Shown here: piece by piece, positions 32,496-62,033 of the stretch
Layout of the letters: each line of letters begins with the position of its first letter
How positions within the stretch are numbered: position 1 is the stretch's first letter
Origin: Clostridiaceae bacterium
GTDB taxonomy: Bacteria; Bacillota; Clostridia; DSM-8532
DNA length: 64,000 bases
NCBI GenBank assembly: GCA_012519655.1
Contig: JAAYPS010000196.1
Coordinates: 16,276-80,275, forward strand
Direction: 5' to 3'
The notes under the pieces: generated by a model
What the model saw: only the letters and a program-made list of their open reading frames with translations
The model's database searches: none
Told to the model about the DNA's origin: nothing
Made by a program: the position numbers and the translations under genes

Positions 32496-33776
32496 ATGAC
32501 TAAAGAGATCATTGCTCTCATCTTAGCTGGTGGTACCGGTACAAGATTAGGCATTCTAACAAAGTTATTAGCAAAACCTGCAGTACTTTATGGTGGTAAA
32601 TATCGCATCATTGATTTTACATTAAGTAACTGTATTAACTCTGGAATAGATACGGTTGGAGTTCTTACTCAATATAGACCACTTCAGCTAAACAACCATA
32701 TTGGCATAGGCAAGCCTTGGGATCTTGATAGAATGAATTGTGGTGTTACTATTCTGTCACCATTTACAAGGCAGCAAAAAGGCGAATGGTATTCAGGAAC
32801 TGCAGATGCAGTATATCAAAATTTACATTATATTGATGAGCAAAATCCAAAATATGTAATAGTACTTTCAGGTGATCATATTTACAAAATGAACTACTCA
32901 ATGATGTTGGACTTTCACAAAAAGAATAATGCCGACTTAACTATCTCAGCAATTCAAATTCCTCTTGAAGAAGCACATAGATATGGTATTATCCATGCAA
33001 CTGATGAAGGTAAAATATATGGATTTGAAGAAAAACCGCCAGAACCGAAGAGTAACCTTGCATCCATGGGCGTTTACATATTTAAAATGGACGTCCTAAA
33101 AAAATGTCTAATTGAAGATCGAAGTATTGAAGGTTCTAGCCATGATTTCGGAAAAAACATTATCCCTAAACTGCTCAATGATGGGAAAAATCTATGGGCC
33201 TATACTTTTTCAGGCTATTGGCGCGATGTCGGAACTATACAGGCTTACTACGAATCCAACATGGACTTAATTACTCGCGTGCCACAATTCAACCTATTTG
33301 ATCACAACTGGAAAATCTACACACCAAATCCCGTTAAACCTGCGCACTATATTGGAGAGTCGGGATATGTATCTAAATCTATTATTTCTGAAGGGTGCAT
33401 GATTTTTGGGCAAGTTAAAAATTCCATCATATTTCCGGGCGTAACGATTGAAGAAAATGCCTTTATTGAGGATTCAATTATTATGTCAAAAAGCACTGTT
33501 AAATCTGGTTCTAGACTAAATTGCACAATAGTAGGAGAAAAAACCACTCTCGGTCGCAATGTCAGAACTGGGATCGGTGATTATGCTGAGAATATTTTTA
33601 ACAGTGAAATATATAAAACAAAAATAACAGTGATAGGCTCCGATACCATTGTCCCTGATAATACAAATATTGGTTGCAATGTTGTTATTGATAATAAGAT
33701 ATCAGCTCAGGATATCCCGTCTTCGAATATTCCTTCGGGTTACGCATTACTGAAAGGTGGTGATGGTAATGTATAA
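32496..33776 (+). CDS. glgC: Glucose-1-phosphate adenylyltransferase, catalytic subunit
   Basis: IALILAGGTGTRLGILTKLLAKPAVLYGGKYRIIDFTLSNCINSGID, GTADAVYQNLHYID, SGDHIYKMNY. Confidence 0.97.
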   Translation: MTKEIIALILAGGTGTRLGILTKLLAKPAVLYGGKYRIIDFTLSNCINSGIDTVGVLTQYRPLQLNNHIGIGKPWDLDRMNCGVTILSPFTRQQKGEWYSGTADAVYQNLHYIDEQNPKYVIVLSGDHIYKMNYSMMLDFHKKNNADLTISAIQIPLEEAHRYGIIHATDEGKIYGFEEKPPEPKSNLASMGVYIFKMDVLKKCLIEDRSIEGSSHDFGKNIIPKLLNDGKNLWAYTFSGYWRDVGTIQAYYESNMDLITRVPQFNLFDHNWKIYTPNPVKPAHYIGESGYVSKSIISEGCMIFGQVKNSIIFPGVTIEENAFIEDSIIMSKSTVKSGSRLNCTIVGEKTTLGRNVRTGIGDYAENIFNSEIYKTKITVIGSDTIVPDNTNIGCNVVIDNKISAQDIPSSNIPSGYALLKGGDGNV

Positions 33777-34890
33777 CACGATGGGCATTATATTTACAGG
33801 TGGAAAAAACAATCGTCTTAAAGAGTTGTCTGCTGAACGTTCCATATCGGCTGTACCTTTTGGTGGAAAATATCGCGCAATTGATTTCGCACTATCAAAC
33901 ATGATAAATTCTGGCATACGCAATGTTGGAATACCTACACAGTATAATTTTCACTCATTAATGGATCACTTAGGCTCTGGAAAGGAATGGGATCTGGATA
34001 GAAAAAATGATGGTTTGTTCATACTAACCCCCTATTTGTCCGAGTATGGAACGGGATGGTATAAGGGTAATGCAGATGCAATGTACAAAAATTTAACTTT
34101 CCTAAACCGTAGCAATGAAGAGTTCGTGGTTATAAACCAAGGCTATGCAATCTATAATATGAATTATATTGATATGCTAAAACACCATGTGGACAAGGAC
34201 GCCGATGTTACAATCTCTTGCAGATATATGGCTGACTTTCCCCAAGAATATCTTTGCAAATTAGGAATTGTTGAAACAGATAGCGATAAACGAATCATTG
34301 ACATTCAGGAAAAGCCCCTGAACCCAAAAAGCAATTTTGTATCCATGGGGGTTTACATTATCAAACGGAAATTGCTAATAACCCTTCTTGAAGAAAGCGC
34401 TGCCCATGGATATTATGAATTCGTAAGAGATATACTTGTAAAAAAAGTTAAGGAATTACGTATTTACAGTTATGAATGGAAAGGTTATTGGAAACCTTTA
34501 TGCAATATACAGCTGTACTACCAAACAAACATGGAATTGTTAAATCCATCTGTTCGCTATGAGCTTTTTATGAAAAATGGTAGAATATTCACAAAGGTAA
34601 AAGATGAACCACCAGCAAAATATAACGAGGAAGCTTTGGTGCGAAATGCTGTGGTTGCAGATGGTTGCATCATCGAAGGTCGGGTGGAAAACAGCATACT
34701 CTTTAGGGGTGTAAATGTTCAAAGAGGCGCAGTTATTAATAATAGTATCATAATGCAGGATTCTGTAATTTGCGAAAATACATCCCTTGATTACTGTATA
34801 TTAGACAAAAACGTGGTTATTACACCAAACAAGCAACTAAAAGGTGATAAGAACTGGCCTTTAATAGTAGGTAAAAACGTGGTAGTATAA
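33769..34890 (+). CDS. glgD: GlgD subunit of glucose-1-phosphate adenylyltransferase
   Basis: TMGIIFTGGKNNRLKELSAERSISAVPFGGKYRAIDFALSNMINSGI; degenerate catalytic GGGxGTR; start codon overlaps glgC stop (ATGTATAA). Confidence 0.95.
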   Translation: MYNTMGIIFTGGKNNRLKELSAERSISAVPFGGKYRAIDFALSNMINSGIRNVGIPTQYNFHSLMDHLGSGKEWDLDRKNDGLFILTPYLSEYGTGWYKGNADAMYKNLTFLNRSNEEFVVINQGYAIYNMNYIDMLKHHVDKDADVTISCRYMADFPQEYLCKLGIVETDSDKRIIDIQEKPLNPKSNFVSMGVYIIKRKLLITLLEESAAHGYYEFVRDILVKKVKELRIYSYEWKGYWKPLCNIQLYYQTNMELLNPSVRYELFMKNGRIFTKVKDEPPAKYNEEALVRNAVVADGCIIEGRVENSILFRGVNVQRGAVINNSIIMQDSVICENTSLDYCILDKNVVITPNKQLKGDKNWPLIVGKNVVV

Positions 34891-34894
34891 TAAA

Positions 34895-35893
34895 ATGATT
34901 ACTATATTTACCGCTCTGTATTGTGAAGCTGAGCCGATAATTCAATATTTTGATTTGAAAAGACAGGATGATATTAACGGATTTCAACTTTTTTCAAGAG
35001 ATCCAATTCATTTATTGATTACAGGTGTTGGGAGCATCAATGCTGCAATAGGTGTTACTTCCCTGTGCTCAAGTTCTTTGTACGCTCCTGATTTTGGTGA
35101 TATCATTGTTAATATTGGTATCTGCGGTACCAAGAATTTAAGCTTGGGAAAAGGCTCTCTCCTGTTAGGTAAAAAAATAATTGATCTTAGTACATACAGA
35201 GCTTACTATCCTGATATGATTTTTGAACATGAATTTACTGAAAGCACTATTTTAACAAGTCCTGTTCCAGTAACAGGTAGTGTCAATAATAGTGCCATAG
35301 TTCACTCTTTGCATACAGAGCATAGTAGTATCTACGCGGGTAGCACCGAAATTTCTATGACAGAATGTGCAGGGCTTCGAACACAGAGCTTTATTCATAA
35401 GGATAATACCAACACTATTTCTAATGAGTGGCTTTCGGATGCAATCAACTTATTCGCCACTGATATGGAGGCATCTGGGATATTCCATGCTGCAAAACTT
35501 TTTTATCAACCACATCAAATGTTCTTTTTTAAAGTTGTTTCAGATTATCAGGATGGCGAAAAGTTAAGGAAACAAGATGTGTTAAGTTTAATATCTGACA
35601 ATATTGGACAAATTGCAAAATGGATATTACCAATTCACGATGAGCTACAAAGCCGTAAACCAATGGTGTTTTCAGAGCAGGAGAAGGCTTTGTTGAATAG
35701 AACTGCTGAAAGCTTAAGATTAACTGTCTCAATGCAGTTTCAACTTAAGGGTTTACTTCATTACTATAAAATAAAGAATGGCGATTTTACTAGGGATTTA
35801 GAACAATTTTTGAAAGAAAATATAAAACAAACATGCAAAAATAAAAACGAAGGGAAGAAATACTTTGAAAAGCTTAGAAAAAGCTTCCTATAA
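34895..35893 (+). CDS. MTA/SAH nucleosidase (nucleoside phosphorylase fold)-like protein with C-terminal helical extension
   Basis: TALYCEAEPIIQYF (E12-like), IIVNIGICGT, FATDMEASGIFHAA (MExE-like), KVVSDYQDGE (catalytic SD); about 90 aa extra C-terminal region. Confidence 0.75.
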   Translation: MITIFTALYCEAEPIIQYFDLKRQDDINGFQLFSRDPIHLLITGVGSINAAIGVTSLCSSSLYAPDFGDIIVNIGICGTKNLSLGKGSLLLGKKIIDLSTYRAYYPDMIFEHEFTESTILTSPVPVTGSVNNSAIVHSLHTEHSSIYAGSTEISMTECAGLRTQSFIHKDNTNTISNEWLSDAINLFATDMEASGIFHAAKLFYQPHQMFFFKVVSDYQDGEKLRKQDVLSLISDNIGQIAKWILPIHDELQSRKPMVFSEQEKALLNRTAESLRLTVSMQFQLKGLLHYYKIKNGDFTRDLEQFLKENIKQTCKNKNEGKKYFEKLRKSFL

Positions 35894-36881
35894 CGCTGCG
35901 TTTAGTCATATCTATGTGGAAAAAGAAATAATTGATCACCCCAACACGATAGAAATATTATCTCGTTTTCCGAAAGCTGTGAAAATAGAAATTAGCCGTT
36001 ATAATGAAATTTTCTCCAGAAGCAATCAAAGTTTTATCATTCAAAAAAAATCACCAGCTCTAATTCTAGCAAAAAAATATGGTAAATTTCTTTTCGAGGG
36101 CGCTCCAGTATGTCAAGATTTTGGCAATGAACATTTTTATTATACTACTTGCGTTATGAACTGTATTTATGATTGTGAGTACTGTTTTTTACAAGGTATG
36201 TATGACAGTGCCAACATAGTGGTTTTTGTAAACCTTGAAGATTATTTCGCAGAGATAGAAAAACTTCTCGCAATCCATCCAATGTATTTAAGTATATCGT
36301 ATGATACTGACTTACTATCACTTGAGCAAAAGCTAGGCTTTGCACAAAAATGGTGTCGCTTCACTAAAGCCCATTCAGATCTTACAATTGAAATCCGCAC
36401 AAAAAGTGCAAATAACAAAGCAATAGAAGTGTTAACGCCGTCAAAAAATATAATTCTTGCATGGACATTATCGTCAGAAACAGTCCAAGAGGCCTATGAG
36501 CACAAAACACCACCCTTAATGCAAAGGCTGTCATGCATTAAAAAGGCGCTGGAAAAAGGTTTCCAAGTTAGAATTTGCTTCGATCCCATTTTATATTCTA
36601 AAGACTGGTTATCTTCTTTTGAAGAGATGGTTGAAAAAACTTTCACAGAAATACCAGCTACCAAAATCCATGATGCGAGTATTGGGGTATTCAGAATCTC
36701 CAGGGATTATCTGAAAAGAATGAGGAAAAATCGCACTGATTCGGTCATTGTTCACTACCCTTATGAATACGACAATGGTGTTTACCACTATGGAAGTCAT
36801 TTATCTCATTTAATGACCTCTTCGGCTTGCGATATCTTAAAAAAATACATACCCGATGAGAAAATATTCGTCTGGAATTAA
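35865..36881 (+). CDS. splB: Spore photoproduct lyase (radical SAM)
   Basis: CVMNCIYDCEYCFLQGMYDSANIVVFVNLEDYF; SISYDTDLLSLE; TKSANN; LILAWTLSSETVQEAYEHKTPPLMQRL; TTG start at 35865 with AGGGAAG upstream. Confidence 0.93.
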   Translation: MKSLEKASYNAAFSHIYVEKEIIDHPNTIEILSRFPKAVKIEISRYNEIFSRSNQSFIIQKKSPALILAKKYGKFLFEGAPVCQDFGNEHFYYTTCVMNCIYDCEYCFLQGMYDSANIVVFVNLEDYFAEIEKLLAIHPMYLSISYDTDLLSLEQKLGFAQKWCRFTKAHSDLTIEIRTKSANNKAIEVLTPSKNIILAWTLSSETVQEAYEHKTPPLMQRLSCIKKALEKGFQVRICFDPILYSKDWLSSFEEMVEKTFTEIPATKIHDASIGVFRISRDYLKRMRKNRTDSVIVHYPYEYDNGVYHYGSHLSHLMTSSACDILKKYIPDEKIFVWN

Positions 36882-36888
36882 CACAGGG

Positions 36889-36946
36889 AACACAGGGGGA
36901 CGGTTCTTTTGTGTTAATTAACACAAAAGAACCGTCCCCCTGTGTT
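36889..36946. repeat. Perfect 58-bp palindrome between convergent splB and trpB2 (REP-like / bidirectional terminator)
   Basis: AACACAGGGGGACGGTTCTTTTGTGTTAA|TTAACACAAAAGAACCGTCCCCCTGTGTT, 29-nt arms, no mismatch, no spacer. Confidence 0.95.
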
Positions 36947-36956
36947 GTGTGTTGTT

Positions 36957-38324
36957 TTATGGTAGGGTTGCAAAGCCCTTTTCTAAATCTTCATCTGTTG
37001 GAATATAATCCGTCATGGTTCCAGCGTTATAACTACTATAAGCTGATAAATCAAAATATCCGGTACCCGATAGACCAAAAATAATGGTTTTCTCCTCGCC
37101 TGTTTCACAGCACTTTTTGGCTTCGTCCATTGCCACTCTTACTGCATGAGAAGACTCTGGAGCGGGCAGTATTCCCTCGTGGCGCATAAACTCTTTCGCA
37201 GCTTCAAACACTTTTGTTTGTTCAACAGATCTAGCTTCAAAATAGCCATCGTGATACAGTTTTGCCAGTATCGGATTCATTCCATGATATCTTAGCCCAC
37301 CTGCATGATCCGGAGAAGGCATAAACCCTGAACCGAGAGTATACATTTTCAACAATGGTGTGATCTTACCAGTATCTCCAAAATCATAAGCATATCGACC
37401 TCTTGTAAGTGTTGGGCAAGACGCTGGCTCAACCCCGATAAAATGAATGTTGTTTTTGCCTTCAATCTTATCACCCATGAAAGGAGCAATAAGTCCAGCA
37501 AAATTCGAGCCACCTCCGACGCAACCAATCATTATGTCAGGTTCAATGCCATACTTTTCACATGCTGTTTTTGTCTCCTCACCGATAATTGTTTGATGAA
37601 GTATCACATGATCCAATACACTTCCTAAAACATAACGGCAATTATCGGTACTCATTGCAATCTCTAAAGCCTCTGAAATTGCACACCCTAGAGAACCACC
37701 TGTTTCTGGATTCTCTTCTAAGATCTTTCTACCTATTTCAGTTGTATTCGAAGGTGAAGCTATAACTTTGCTCCCATAGGTTTCCATGACTGTTTTCCTG
37801 TATGGTTTTTGATTCATAGAAACCTTAACCATATAAACAATAAGATCAATATCATAATAAGCACATGCCATAGAAAGAGCAGTACCCCATTGTCCAGCAC
37901 CTGTTTCGGTCGTGAGTGTGGTAATTCCTTGTTCTTTAGCATAATACACCTGAGCTGCAGCCGAATTGAGTTTGTGAGAGCCCGATGTATTAGTGCCTTC
38001 AAACTTGTAGTAAATCTTGGCTGGTGTTTTTAAAGCCTTTTCCAGATTATACGCACGAATAAGGGGTGAAGGACGAATCATTCTGTAAAAATCCATAATG
38101 CCTTCAGGTATTTCGATATATTTATCTTTTTCATTTAACTCCTGCTCTATTACTGCTTCGCAAAAGATCGGGGCAAGGTCTTCTTTTTTACACGGCTTAA
38201 GCGTGCCCGGATGCAACATCGGTGATGGTTTTTCCTTCATAACAGCCTTTAAATTATACCAATTTCTTGGAACCTCATTTTCTGATAAAAATATTTTGTA
38301 AGGTATTTTTGTCATAGTTTTCAT
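36957..38324 (-). CDS. trpB: Tryptophan synthase beta chain-like protein TrpB2
   Basis: RPSPLIRAYNLEKALKTPAKIYYKFEGTNTSGSHKLNSAAAQVYYAKEQGITTLTTETGAGQWGTALSMAC, VGCVGGGSNFAGL; long N-terminal region characteristic of TrpB2. Confidence 0.94.
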   Translation of the reverse strand: MKTMTKIPYKIFLSENEVPRNWYNLKAVMKEKPSPMLHPGTLKPCKKEDLAPIFCEAVIEQELNEKDKYIEIPEGIMDFYRMIRPSPLIRAYNLEKALKTPAKIYYKFEGTNTSGSHKLNSAAAQVYYAKEQGITTLTTETGAGQWGTALSMACAYYDIDLIVYMVKVSMNQKPYRKTVMETYGSKVIASPSNTTEIGRKILEENPETGGSLGCAISEALEIAMSTDNCRYVLGSVLDHVILHQTIIGEETKTACEKYGIEPDIMIGCVGGGSNFAGLIAPFMGDKIEGKNNIHFIGVEPASCPTLTRGRYAYDFGDTGKITPLLKMYTLGSGFMPSPDHAGGLRYHGMNPILAKLYHDGYFEARSVEQTKVFEAAKEFMRHEGILPAPESSHAVRVAMDEAKKCCETGEEKTIIFGLSGTGYFDLSAYSSYNAGTMTDYIPTDEDLEKGFATLP

Positions 38325-38419: not shown

Positions 38420-38690
38420 TAAAATAAAAAAAGCCTTTATCCATATATAGGACAAAGACTATTATCTCTGCGGTACCACCTAAATTGCGTATAAAACGCC
38501 ACTTGTTTTCATGTACTAACATACATGCTTCCTTACTAACGGGTGAAGCTCCCGGCGTGCATACTCTAACATATTTCAGCATCGCCCTCATGAGTCCATT
38601 CACAATAAACTTTAACATCGCAATTCCACCATCTGCGACTCTCTATTGATAAAGTATTTATGCTACTTCTCTCAATCACAGGTTTAAATA
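38420..38690 (-). ncRNA. T-box leader, Trp (UGG) specifier
   Basis: minus strand AGAAGTAG..AGAGAGTCGCAGATGGTGGAATTGCGA..GAATGGACTC..AATTTAGGTGGTACCGCAGAGA (38465-38486)..terminator AGTCTTTGTCC-tatatat-GGATAAAGGCTTTTTTT; UGG at 38596-38598. Confidence 0.93.
38421..38460 (-). terminator. T-box regulated Rho-independent terminator
   Basis: AGTCTTTGTCC / GGATAAAGGCT stem followed by TTTTTTTATTTT. Confidence 0.85.
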
Positions 38691-60001: not shown

Positions 60002-61948
60002 CTATTGTTGATAATTTACTATCTTAGTGTATTCATCCAGTTTTAGACTGGCTCCTCCGATTAAACCACCGTCAATGTTAGGCATATTAAATAGCTCAGA
60101 AGCATTTGAAGCTTTTACACTACCACCGTAAAGTATGCGAACATTTTCAGAAGTTTCTTCGTCATATAGTTCTTTAACTAGTTCGCGAATTACTAAACAT
60201 GCCTCCTCCGCTTGAGCATTGGTAGCTGTTTTTCCGGTACCTATTGCCCAGATAGGTTCATAAGCAATAACGAGGTTACTAACCTGTTCCTTAGTAATTC
60301 CAAGTAAAGCAATTTTAATTTGATAACGAATATGCTCTTTTGTAACACCCTGCTCACGCTGAGTCAAAGTTTCACCACAGCATATAATAGGTGTCATTCC
60401 AGAGTTAAGTATTGCATGGGCTTTCTTATTGACGTTTTCATCGGTTTCAGCATAATATTCTCTTCTCTCTGAATGACCAATAATTACATACTGAACACCG
60501 ATTTCCTTAAGCATTTGACAGGAGACTTCACCAGTATATGCACCATTTTCTTCCCAATGTACATTTTGTGCAGCTACTTTAATATTGCTATCTTTGCTGG
60601 CTTCAACAGCTGCAGGTATAGCAACATAAGGTACACCCACCACCATCTCCACATTTGTTTCATCAATTTGTGCCTTTAACTCATTAATAAACTCGGTAGC
60701 TTCACTAGGAGTTTTATTCATTTTCCAGTTACCAGCAGCCATAACTACACGATGGCGTTTGTCCATCAAGCAGGCAATGCCTGGTAGAACTTTACCTTCA
60801 AGAAATTCAAGAGAGGCCCCACCACCTGTAGATATGTGAGTGATCTTATCTGCAAAGCCAAGTTGTTCAACTGCCGCAGCTGAGTCACCACCGCCTACTA
60901 TGGATATAGCTCCTGATTCTGCCACTGCTTCAGCAATTTTCTTGGTTCCATTTGCAAATTTCGGGAACTCGAAAACACCCATAGGTCCATTCCAAACAAT
61001 TGTTTTTGCTTTTTTAATCTCATGTGTAAAGGTTTCTATTGTAATTGTTCCAATATCCATACCCATCCATCCATCGGGTATATCATCTGAAGGTACATAT
61101 TTATCTTCAGTGTCTGGGCTAAACTCCTTACCTATGACATTTCCAATGGGAAGCAAAAGGTTAACGCCTTTCTGTTCTGCTTTTTCCATGAGCTCTTTTG
61201 CTAAATCAATCTTATCTTCTTCGCATATAGAGTTACCTATTTTGTAACCCTTTGCCTTAAGAAATGTATAAGCCATTCCACCACCAATAATTAAAGAATC
61301 AACTTTTTCAAGAAGGTTTTCAATTACTGTTATTTTGTCGGACACTTTTGCCCCGCCCAAAATGGCGATGAATGGTCTTTCTGGGTTTGTTAACGCTTTA
61401 CCCATTAATTCAATTTCTTTTTTAATCAAATATCCTGAAACGGCAGGTAGATAGTCAGCCAACCCTGCGGTAGAAGCATGGGCGCGGTGAGCAGTTCCAA
61501 AAGCATCGTTCACAAAAATATCTGCCATAGAAGCGAGTTCTTTAGCAAATTCCGGATCGTTCTTTGTTTCCTCCTTATGGAAGCGCACATTTTCCAATAG
61601 CAAAACTTGACCTTCTTTTAGTGCTTCTGCCTTTGCCTTTGCATCTTCGCCGATCACGTCATCAGCAAGAATAACTTCCTGACCTAAAAGTTCACTAAGT
61701 CTTATAGCAGCAGGTCTCATACTGAACTTTGCTTCAAACCCTGATTTAGGTCTTCCCAGATGTGATACAAGGATTGTTTTAGCTTTATTTTTTATTAAAT
61801 ATTTAATAGTTGGTAATGCTGCTACAATTCTCTTATCATCGGTTATATTTCCTTCGCTATCCAGAGGTACATTAAAATCCACTCTGGTTATAACTCTTTT
61901 ACCATTAACATCTATGTCCTCAACGCTTTTTTTATTGTACATGCTCAT
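60002..61948 (-). CDS. pgk-tpiA: Fused phosphoglycerate kinase-triosephosphate isomerase
   Basis: [61 protein letters not shown]; directly followed in frame by [59 protein letters not shown]; no stop between. Confidence 0.95.
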
Positions 61949-62033
61949 TATTCCATCTCCTTTATCTACTAATTGCTTCATTTAAAAAAAGTGATTCATG
62001 TAAATATTATCAACTATTTGTCTTCAATCTAAA

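Follow-up and report, generated by a model that had tools for sequence, protein, structure and literature searches.

A conserved gene pair for an MTAN-fold protein and a relative of spore photoproduct lyase in clostridia and fusobacteria

Two overlapping genes in a 64,000-nucleotide stretch of clostridial-type DNA (the window) represent a widespread, uncharacterized enzyme pair. The first, here called nuc, codes for a predicted MTAN-fold nucleosidase, and the second for a radical-SAM protein that, judged by its sequence, belongs to the spore photoproduct lyase (SPL) family without being SplB. Dozens of genera keep this arrangement, so that it is more than chance. Tentatively, and with a likelihood that we would put a little short of even, the two may be read as a dedicated module in which nuc, docked to the SPL-like enzyme, would hydrolyze 5'-deoxyadenosine, with a short-chain dehydrogenase/reductase (SDR) as a further partner in about half of the lineages.

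Conservation of the pair and its fusions

The main survey covered 391 genomes of the class. A clear gap in score sets the SPL-like subfamily (271-656 bits) apart from other SPL homologues (none above 92 bits); it was found in 53 genomes, and these together with five nearby loci make up 58 loci, from related genomes whose counts are not independent events. In all 58, nuc lies immediately upstream of the SPL-like gene, which bears out very strongly the co-occurrence of nucleosidase and SPL-family gene proposed in a preliminary description of this DNA. Protein distances in the two families are also correlated (r=0.77 over 53 pairs; Mantel p<=0.0005). Among the unfused pairs (n=53), the nuc stop falls near the SPL-like N-terminus in nearly all, and at five main-survey loci, spread over three families, nuc and the SPL-like sequence form a single open frame of 617-675 aa, nuc first. 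At one locus (L126, G046:C41:128094-128749), nuc is in three short frames beside an intact SPL-like gene: a frameshift, either real or from sequencing.

Public collections added a sixth fusion, of 623 aa, in Fusobacterium vincentii SB055. The natural fusions are ready single-gene constructs for biochemistry. The 2.1-Mb Fusobacterium record (NZ_CP084075.1, L171) is labelled “plasmid pSB055A”; its size suggests a mislabelled chromosome. Outside the class, nuc is kept in 9 of 12 further loci, and the three exceptions (L166, L168, L169) all belong to one genus, in which the SPL-like gene has no adjacent nuc and is preceded instead by a repetitive coiled-coil ORF (VDKRLDNVENRLD repeats). The pair genes were also found in public collections on two human-gut contigs, L172 and L173 (MT835514.1 and MT835770.1). 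These are unverified “Bacteriophage sp.” scaffolds on which the pair and an SDR gene sit amid ordinary bacterial genes; both are probably bacterial DNA. Searches of the open-access literature on SPL together with a nucleosidase, gene neighborhood or SDR, and on photoproduct lyase in Fusobacterium, turned up no mention of the nuc/SPL-like pair.

The window comes from a 2.63-Mb draft genome of clostridial type (contig C91), and its gene order, as first described, was confirmed (Table 1): glgC and glgD, which overlap by 20 nt given a GTG start for glgD; nuc, with its ATG 4 nt past the end of glgD; and the SPL-like gene, starting at TTG 35865 inside nuc.

Table 1. Positions, in the window, of the gene pair, its surroundings and the codons discussed in the text
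Feature	Position	Strand	Remarks
glgC	32496-33776	+	
glgD	33757-34890	+	
glgC-glgD	32496-34890	+	operon context only in the window genus and a second genus from its family (5/58 loci)
nuc, predicted MTAN-fold nucleosidase with C-terminal helical domain, 332 aa	34895-35893	+	upstream of SPL-like gene at 58/58 main-survey loci
E11 codon of nuc, at MTAN E12 (water-activating Glu)	34925-34927	+	kept in 54/58
Lineage-specific insert of nuc, about 47 residues (about 129-175)	35279-35419	+	missing from nearest relatives and genus mates; low predicted confidence, predicted disordered
D190-M191-E192 of nuc, at MTAN ME174 (ribose binding)	35462-35470	+	E192 in 54/58
D217 of nuc, at MTAN D197 (adenine N7 acid)	35543-35545	+	52/58
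Helical C-terminal domain of nuc (about residues 255-332)	35657-35890	+	ends KNEGKKYFExLRKxF; linker in fusions; survives loss of catalytic half
nuc/SPL-like overlap, 29 nt	35865-35893	+	conserved EGKKYFE codons hold a GGGAAG Shine-Dalgarno-like run and the TTG start; same 29 nt in 8/8 nearest relatives
SPL-like radical-SAM protein, 338 aa	35865-36881	+	SPL superfamily, outside the SplB clade by sequence
C83 of SPL-like protein	36111-36113	+	73/73; aligned with the clostridial SPL Cys (C74 in the C. acetobutylicum enzyme)
CxxxCxxC radical-SAM cluster motif (C100, C104, C107)	36162-36185	+	73/73
Y146 of SPL-like protein, at B. subtilis C141 / G. thermodenitrificans C140 position	36300-36302	+	profile alignment to 4fhc; 73/73
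Perfect palindrome (AGGGGGACGGTTCTTTTGTGTT...), 20-bp stem counted, terminator-like	36894-36941	+	between convergent SPL-like and trpB-like genes

Relationships of the two proteins

The predicted fold places nuc distantly among PNP_UDP_1/MTAN-fold proteins. Its match to Pfam PF01048 (PNP_UDP_1) is weak (E=2.9e-4, under the Pfam cut-off), and all curated models of the MTAN/Pfs kind fall far short of their cut-offs: the MTAN model gives 18.6 bits against 169, and TIGR03664 (futalosine hydrolase, MqnB), the best of the curated models, gives 30.3 bits against 124.7 (E=3.2e-7, residues 4-96 only). A profile of nine nuc relatives compared with PDB found MTANs as the only credible relatives (E down to 3.7e-7), and in Foldseek the predicted structure matched MTANs and the H. 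pylori futalosine hydrolase/MTAN (E about 1e-11 to 1e-9). E11, E192 and D217, which we take to be the equivalents of the catalytic E12, E174 and D197 of E. coli MTAN (standard numbering), are conserved in most members, in agreement with the catalytic residues noticed earlier; the set of three is complete in 51 of 58.

Several features depart from MTAN/Pfs. The R193 position is Lys, the segment before DMEA is shorter, the gene is tied to a single radical-SAM gene, and there is an extra C-terminal domain: the roughly 90 additional residues of the preliminary description correspond to a conserved helical domain of about 80 residues, predicted with good confidence. A YPD motif exceeds every catalytic residue in conservation, with P in 57 of 58 members and D (D107) in all 58.

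The downstream gene had been described as splB, a reading that holds as far as the family and no farther. Its product is above the Pfam SPL cut-off (PF20903, 40.6 bits against 27) and shares with SplB full-length homology, CxxxCxxC, a Tyr corresponding to Y96 of the G. thermodenitrificans enzyme and a Lys in a TK motif. Spore photoproduct lyase structures are also the best Foldseek matches of its model (4fhg, E=5.5e-12, and 4fhc), with MqnE among the next neighbors; the model is only moderate (pLDDT 65.8, built on a nine-sequence alignment), so residue geometry was not taken from it. The two curated SPL models, in contrast, have cut-offs of 400 and 437 bits and score it at only about 53 (53.8 against 400 for TIGR04070, the SplB model). 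In the tree, the SPL-like proteins make up a separate clade (support 0.75), apart from that of other SPL homologues (0.98), a reference group made up of SPL-type proteins and a second SPL-family type. On this sequence evidence, the protein is a relative within the SPL family rather than SplB, which it also differs from in its linkage to nuc and in not being tied to sporulation. Genomes carrying the gene may thus be misjudged as carriers of spore photoproduct lyase: the enzyme differs, and it occurs in non-spore-formers too.

The CxxxCxxC motif, C83, Y106, Y146, E176, E212, R221, R236 and R277 are invariant in all 73 SPL-like proteins. Where SplB has C141 there is Tyr, and at the position of the relay Tyr (Y99 in B. 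subtilis) the window protein has F108, the subfamily being divided between Y (56/73) and F (17/73). Loss of the H-donor Cys, as the Tyr at the C141 position might imply, was considered and dropped, because the functional Cys of clostridial SPLs is at C74 (C. acetobutylicum SPL) and not at the C141 position (PMC5368176), and the invariant C83 aligns there. This alignment suggests that SPL-type H-atom chemistry may have been kept.

Possible functions of the pair

Clustering of neighboring genes brought out one recurrent extra gene beside the pair, coding for an SDR of about 232 aa. It lies directly downstream on the same strand at 29 of the 58 loci, often overlapping by 4-10 nt, and in Fusobacterium follows the fusion gene after 212 nt. 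The SDR is a distinct subfamily (225-398 bits on its own profile): in the 391-genome class survey, 31 of 31 occurrences were in pair-bearing genomes, with none in the 338 pair-less ones. Since it is unlinked to the pair in three of these genomes (G149, G347, G164), the association is not merely positional. It was searched for in the window genome and genus and found absent, so it counts as an accessory. A kinase-isomerase-aldolase trio did not stand out among the neighbor clusters; the 5-deoxyribose salvage cluster of that composition (kinase, isomerase, DrdA aldolase; PMC6079011) is like the present genes in being concerned with the fate of 5'-deoxyadenosine, and unlike them in that the recurrent neighbor here is an SDR.

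In the module that we tentatively favor, the SPL-like enzyme would act on something other than spore photoproduct, by chemistry of the SPL type with a 5'-deoxyadenosyl radical and a Cys/Tyr relay. Translationally coupled or fused to it, nuc would hydrolyze, in the manner of MTAN, the 5'-deoxyadenosine set free during turnover to adenine and 5-deoxyribose on site, and would dock by way of the YPD segment and the conserved helical domain at its C-terminus; the SDR would be a third member in about half of the lineages. The linkage, the fusions and the retained catalytic residues all point to a nucleosidase dedicated to a radical-SAM enzyme, an idea already present in the preliminary description. 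5'-Deoxyadenosine is toxic to radical-SAM enzymes, is an MTAN substrate and is cleared by nucleosidase (PMC6079011), and on-site hydrolysis may relieve product inhibition. In the Y99F variant of SPL, SAM recycling is abolished and 5'-deoxyadenosine is made stoichiometrically, one per turnover (PMC3742179); the window protein has F at the same position. The pair and its fusions would then show a radical-SAM enzyme carrying its own nucleosidase, and would offer a test of relief from 5'-deoxyadenosine inhibition and of the coupling of SAM use to turnover.

The distribution of standard MTAN bears on the substrate. Of the pair-bearing genomes with a standard MTAN, 5 of 13 have a nuc that has lost core residues, compared with 1 of 24 of those without (p=0.014), a pattern that is only suggestive because three independent lineages account for it; the single MTAN-less case is a split reading frame (a frameshifted gene). 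Loss of nuc catalysis almost only beside a general MTAN favors 5'-deoxyadenosine as the nuc substrate. A shared MTAN suffices for most radical-SAM enzymes, and one is present in 13 of the 37 tested genomes with the pair, so a dedicated 5'-deoxyadenosine hydrolase needs explaining. Also counting against the module are four nuc proteins without a catalytic half and the one genus whose SPL-like gene has no adjacent nuc.

Another possibility, unlikely but the best placed of the alternatives, is that nuc acts on the product: the SPL-like enzyme would add a 5'-deoxyadenosyl group, nuc would cut off the adenine and the SDR would reduce the exposed ribose or another carbonyl. In menaquinone synthesis, MqnE and MqnB follow just this product-processing logic. 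The hopanoid enzymes HpnH and HpnG are likewise a dedicated radical-SAM and MTAN/phosphorylase-fold pair in which the partner processes the radical-SAM product (PMC12583986). Both known pairs therefore run contrary to hydrolysis of free 5'-deoxyadenosine, and the best curated match of nuc, weak as it is, being futalosine hydrolase, the place of MqnE among the structural neighbors of the SPL-like model, and the confinement of the SDR to pair-bearing genomes, which suits a reductive third step, all agree with them. The present pair differs from the two in having an SPL-family radical-SAM enzyme, an SDR as the sole recurrent third gene, and fusions. Against product processing, nuc catalysis has hardly ever been lost except where a standard MTAN is present, suggesting that MTAN can replace nuc; C83 and Y106 look like the H-atom relay of an SPL, not like a site for adduct formation; and there is no known candidate for the acceptor. 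There is some chance, if not a large one, that clostridia and fusobacteria hold a radical-SAM pathway new to science, of adenosyl transfer, adenine removal and reduction, that makes or repairs a metabolite or nucleoside. If nuc does process an adenosylated product, this would be a new biosynthetic pathway in common anaerobes, joining the syntheses of menaquinone and of the hopanoid side chain as a third case, and would give the SPL family a function other than on spore photoproduct.

It is less probable again that nuc works mainly as a scaffold or binding subunit, with the YPD segment and C-terminal helices essential and the nucleosidase site secondary. The greater conservation of YPD fits this, as do the nuc proteins of L132, L148, L151 and the gut contig L172, which retain YPD and the C-terminal domain after losing the catalytic half, so that part of nuc would have another role; the complete catalytic set in most members, including every tested MTAN-less one except a frameshifted gene, argues the other way. 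Quite improbable is a nuc that serves as the general MTA/SAH nucleosidase of its genome and stands beside the SPL-like gene by chance. A standard MTAN was looked for and not found in the window genome (G000), whose PF01048 genes besides nuc are for a PNPH purine nucleoside phosphorylase (C168) and an AMP-nucleosidase/uridine-phosphorylase-like protein (C137), but standard MTAN is as common in tested genomes with the pair as in those without (7/23), and the near-complete linkage and the fusions speak against chance. Given this want of anti-correlation, the idea that nuc supplies the general MTAN activity in genomes lacking a standard MTAN was rejected.

Spores, glycogen and the surroundings of the pair

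A spore-photoproduct repair unit linked to carbon storage, as first proposed, is very unlikely: SPL family membership, SpoIVA in the window genome and the glgC-glgD genes upstream speak for it, but the pair also occurs in bacteria without spores. SpoIVA is present in 281 of the 391 genomes; 35 of the 53 pair-bearing genomes have it and 18 do not (p=0.33 against background), whereas other SPL homologues, a set that includes a second SPL-family type beside SplB-like genes, were in SpoIVA-positive genomes in 64 of 64 cases (p=1e-10; pair against other SPL homologues, p=1e-7). Fusobacterium, which has the pair, is non-sporulating, and 11 of the 53 pair-bearing genomes carry another SPL homologue as well. 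The spore link was rejected on this co-distribution, and glgC-glgD as part of the unit because no more than five of the 58 loci, from a single family, have them ahead of the pair, the conserved neighbor, in half of the loci, being the SDR. Of the preliminary description, then, the co-occurrence, the catalytic residues and the dedicated nucleosidase are supported, and the spore repair and glycogen parts are not.

Downstream of the SPL-like gene, the palindrome in Table 1, whose motif occurs once within the window, looks like a repeat-type bidirectional terminator. The convergent gene beyond it (36957-38324, minus strand) is tryptophan-synthase-beta-like (TrpB2-like) and has a T-box leader upstream (RF00230, 115.7 bits; 38445-38688, minus strand). 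Farther along, positions 60002-61981 (minus strand) hold one ORF of 659 aa that appears by eye to be a phosphoglycerate kinase-triosephosphate isomerase fusion.
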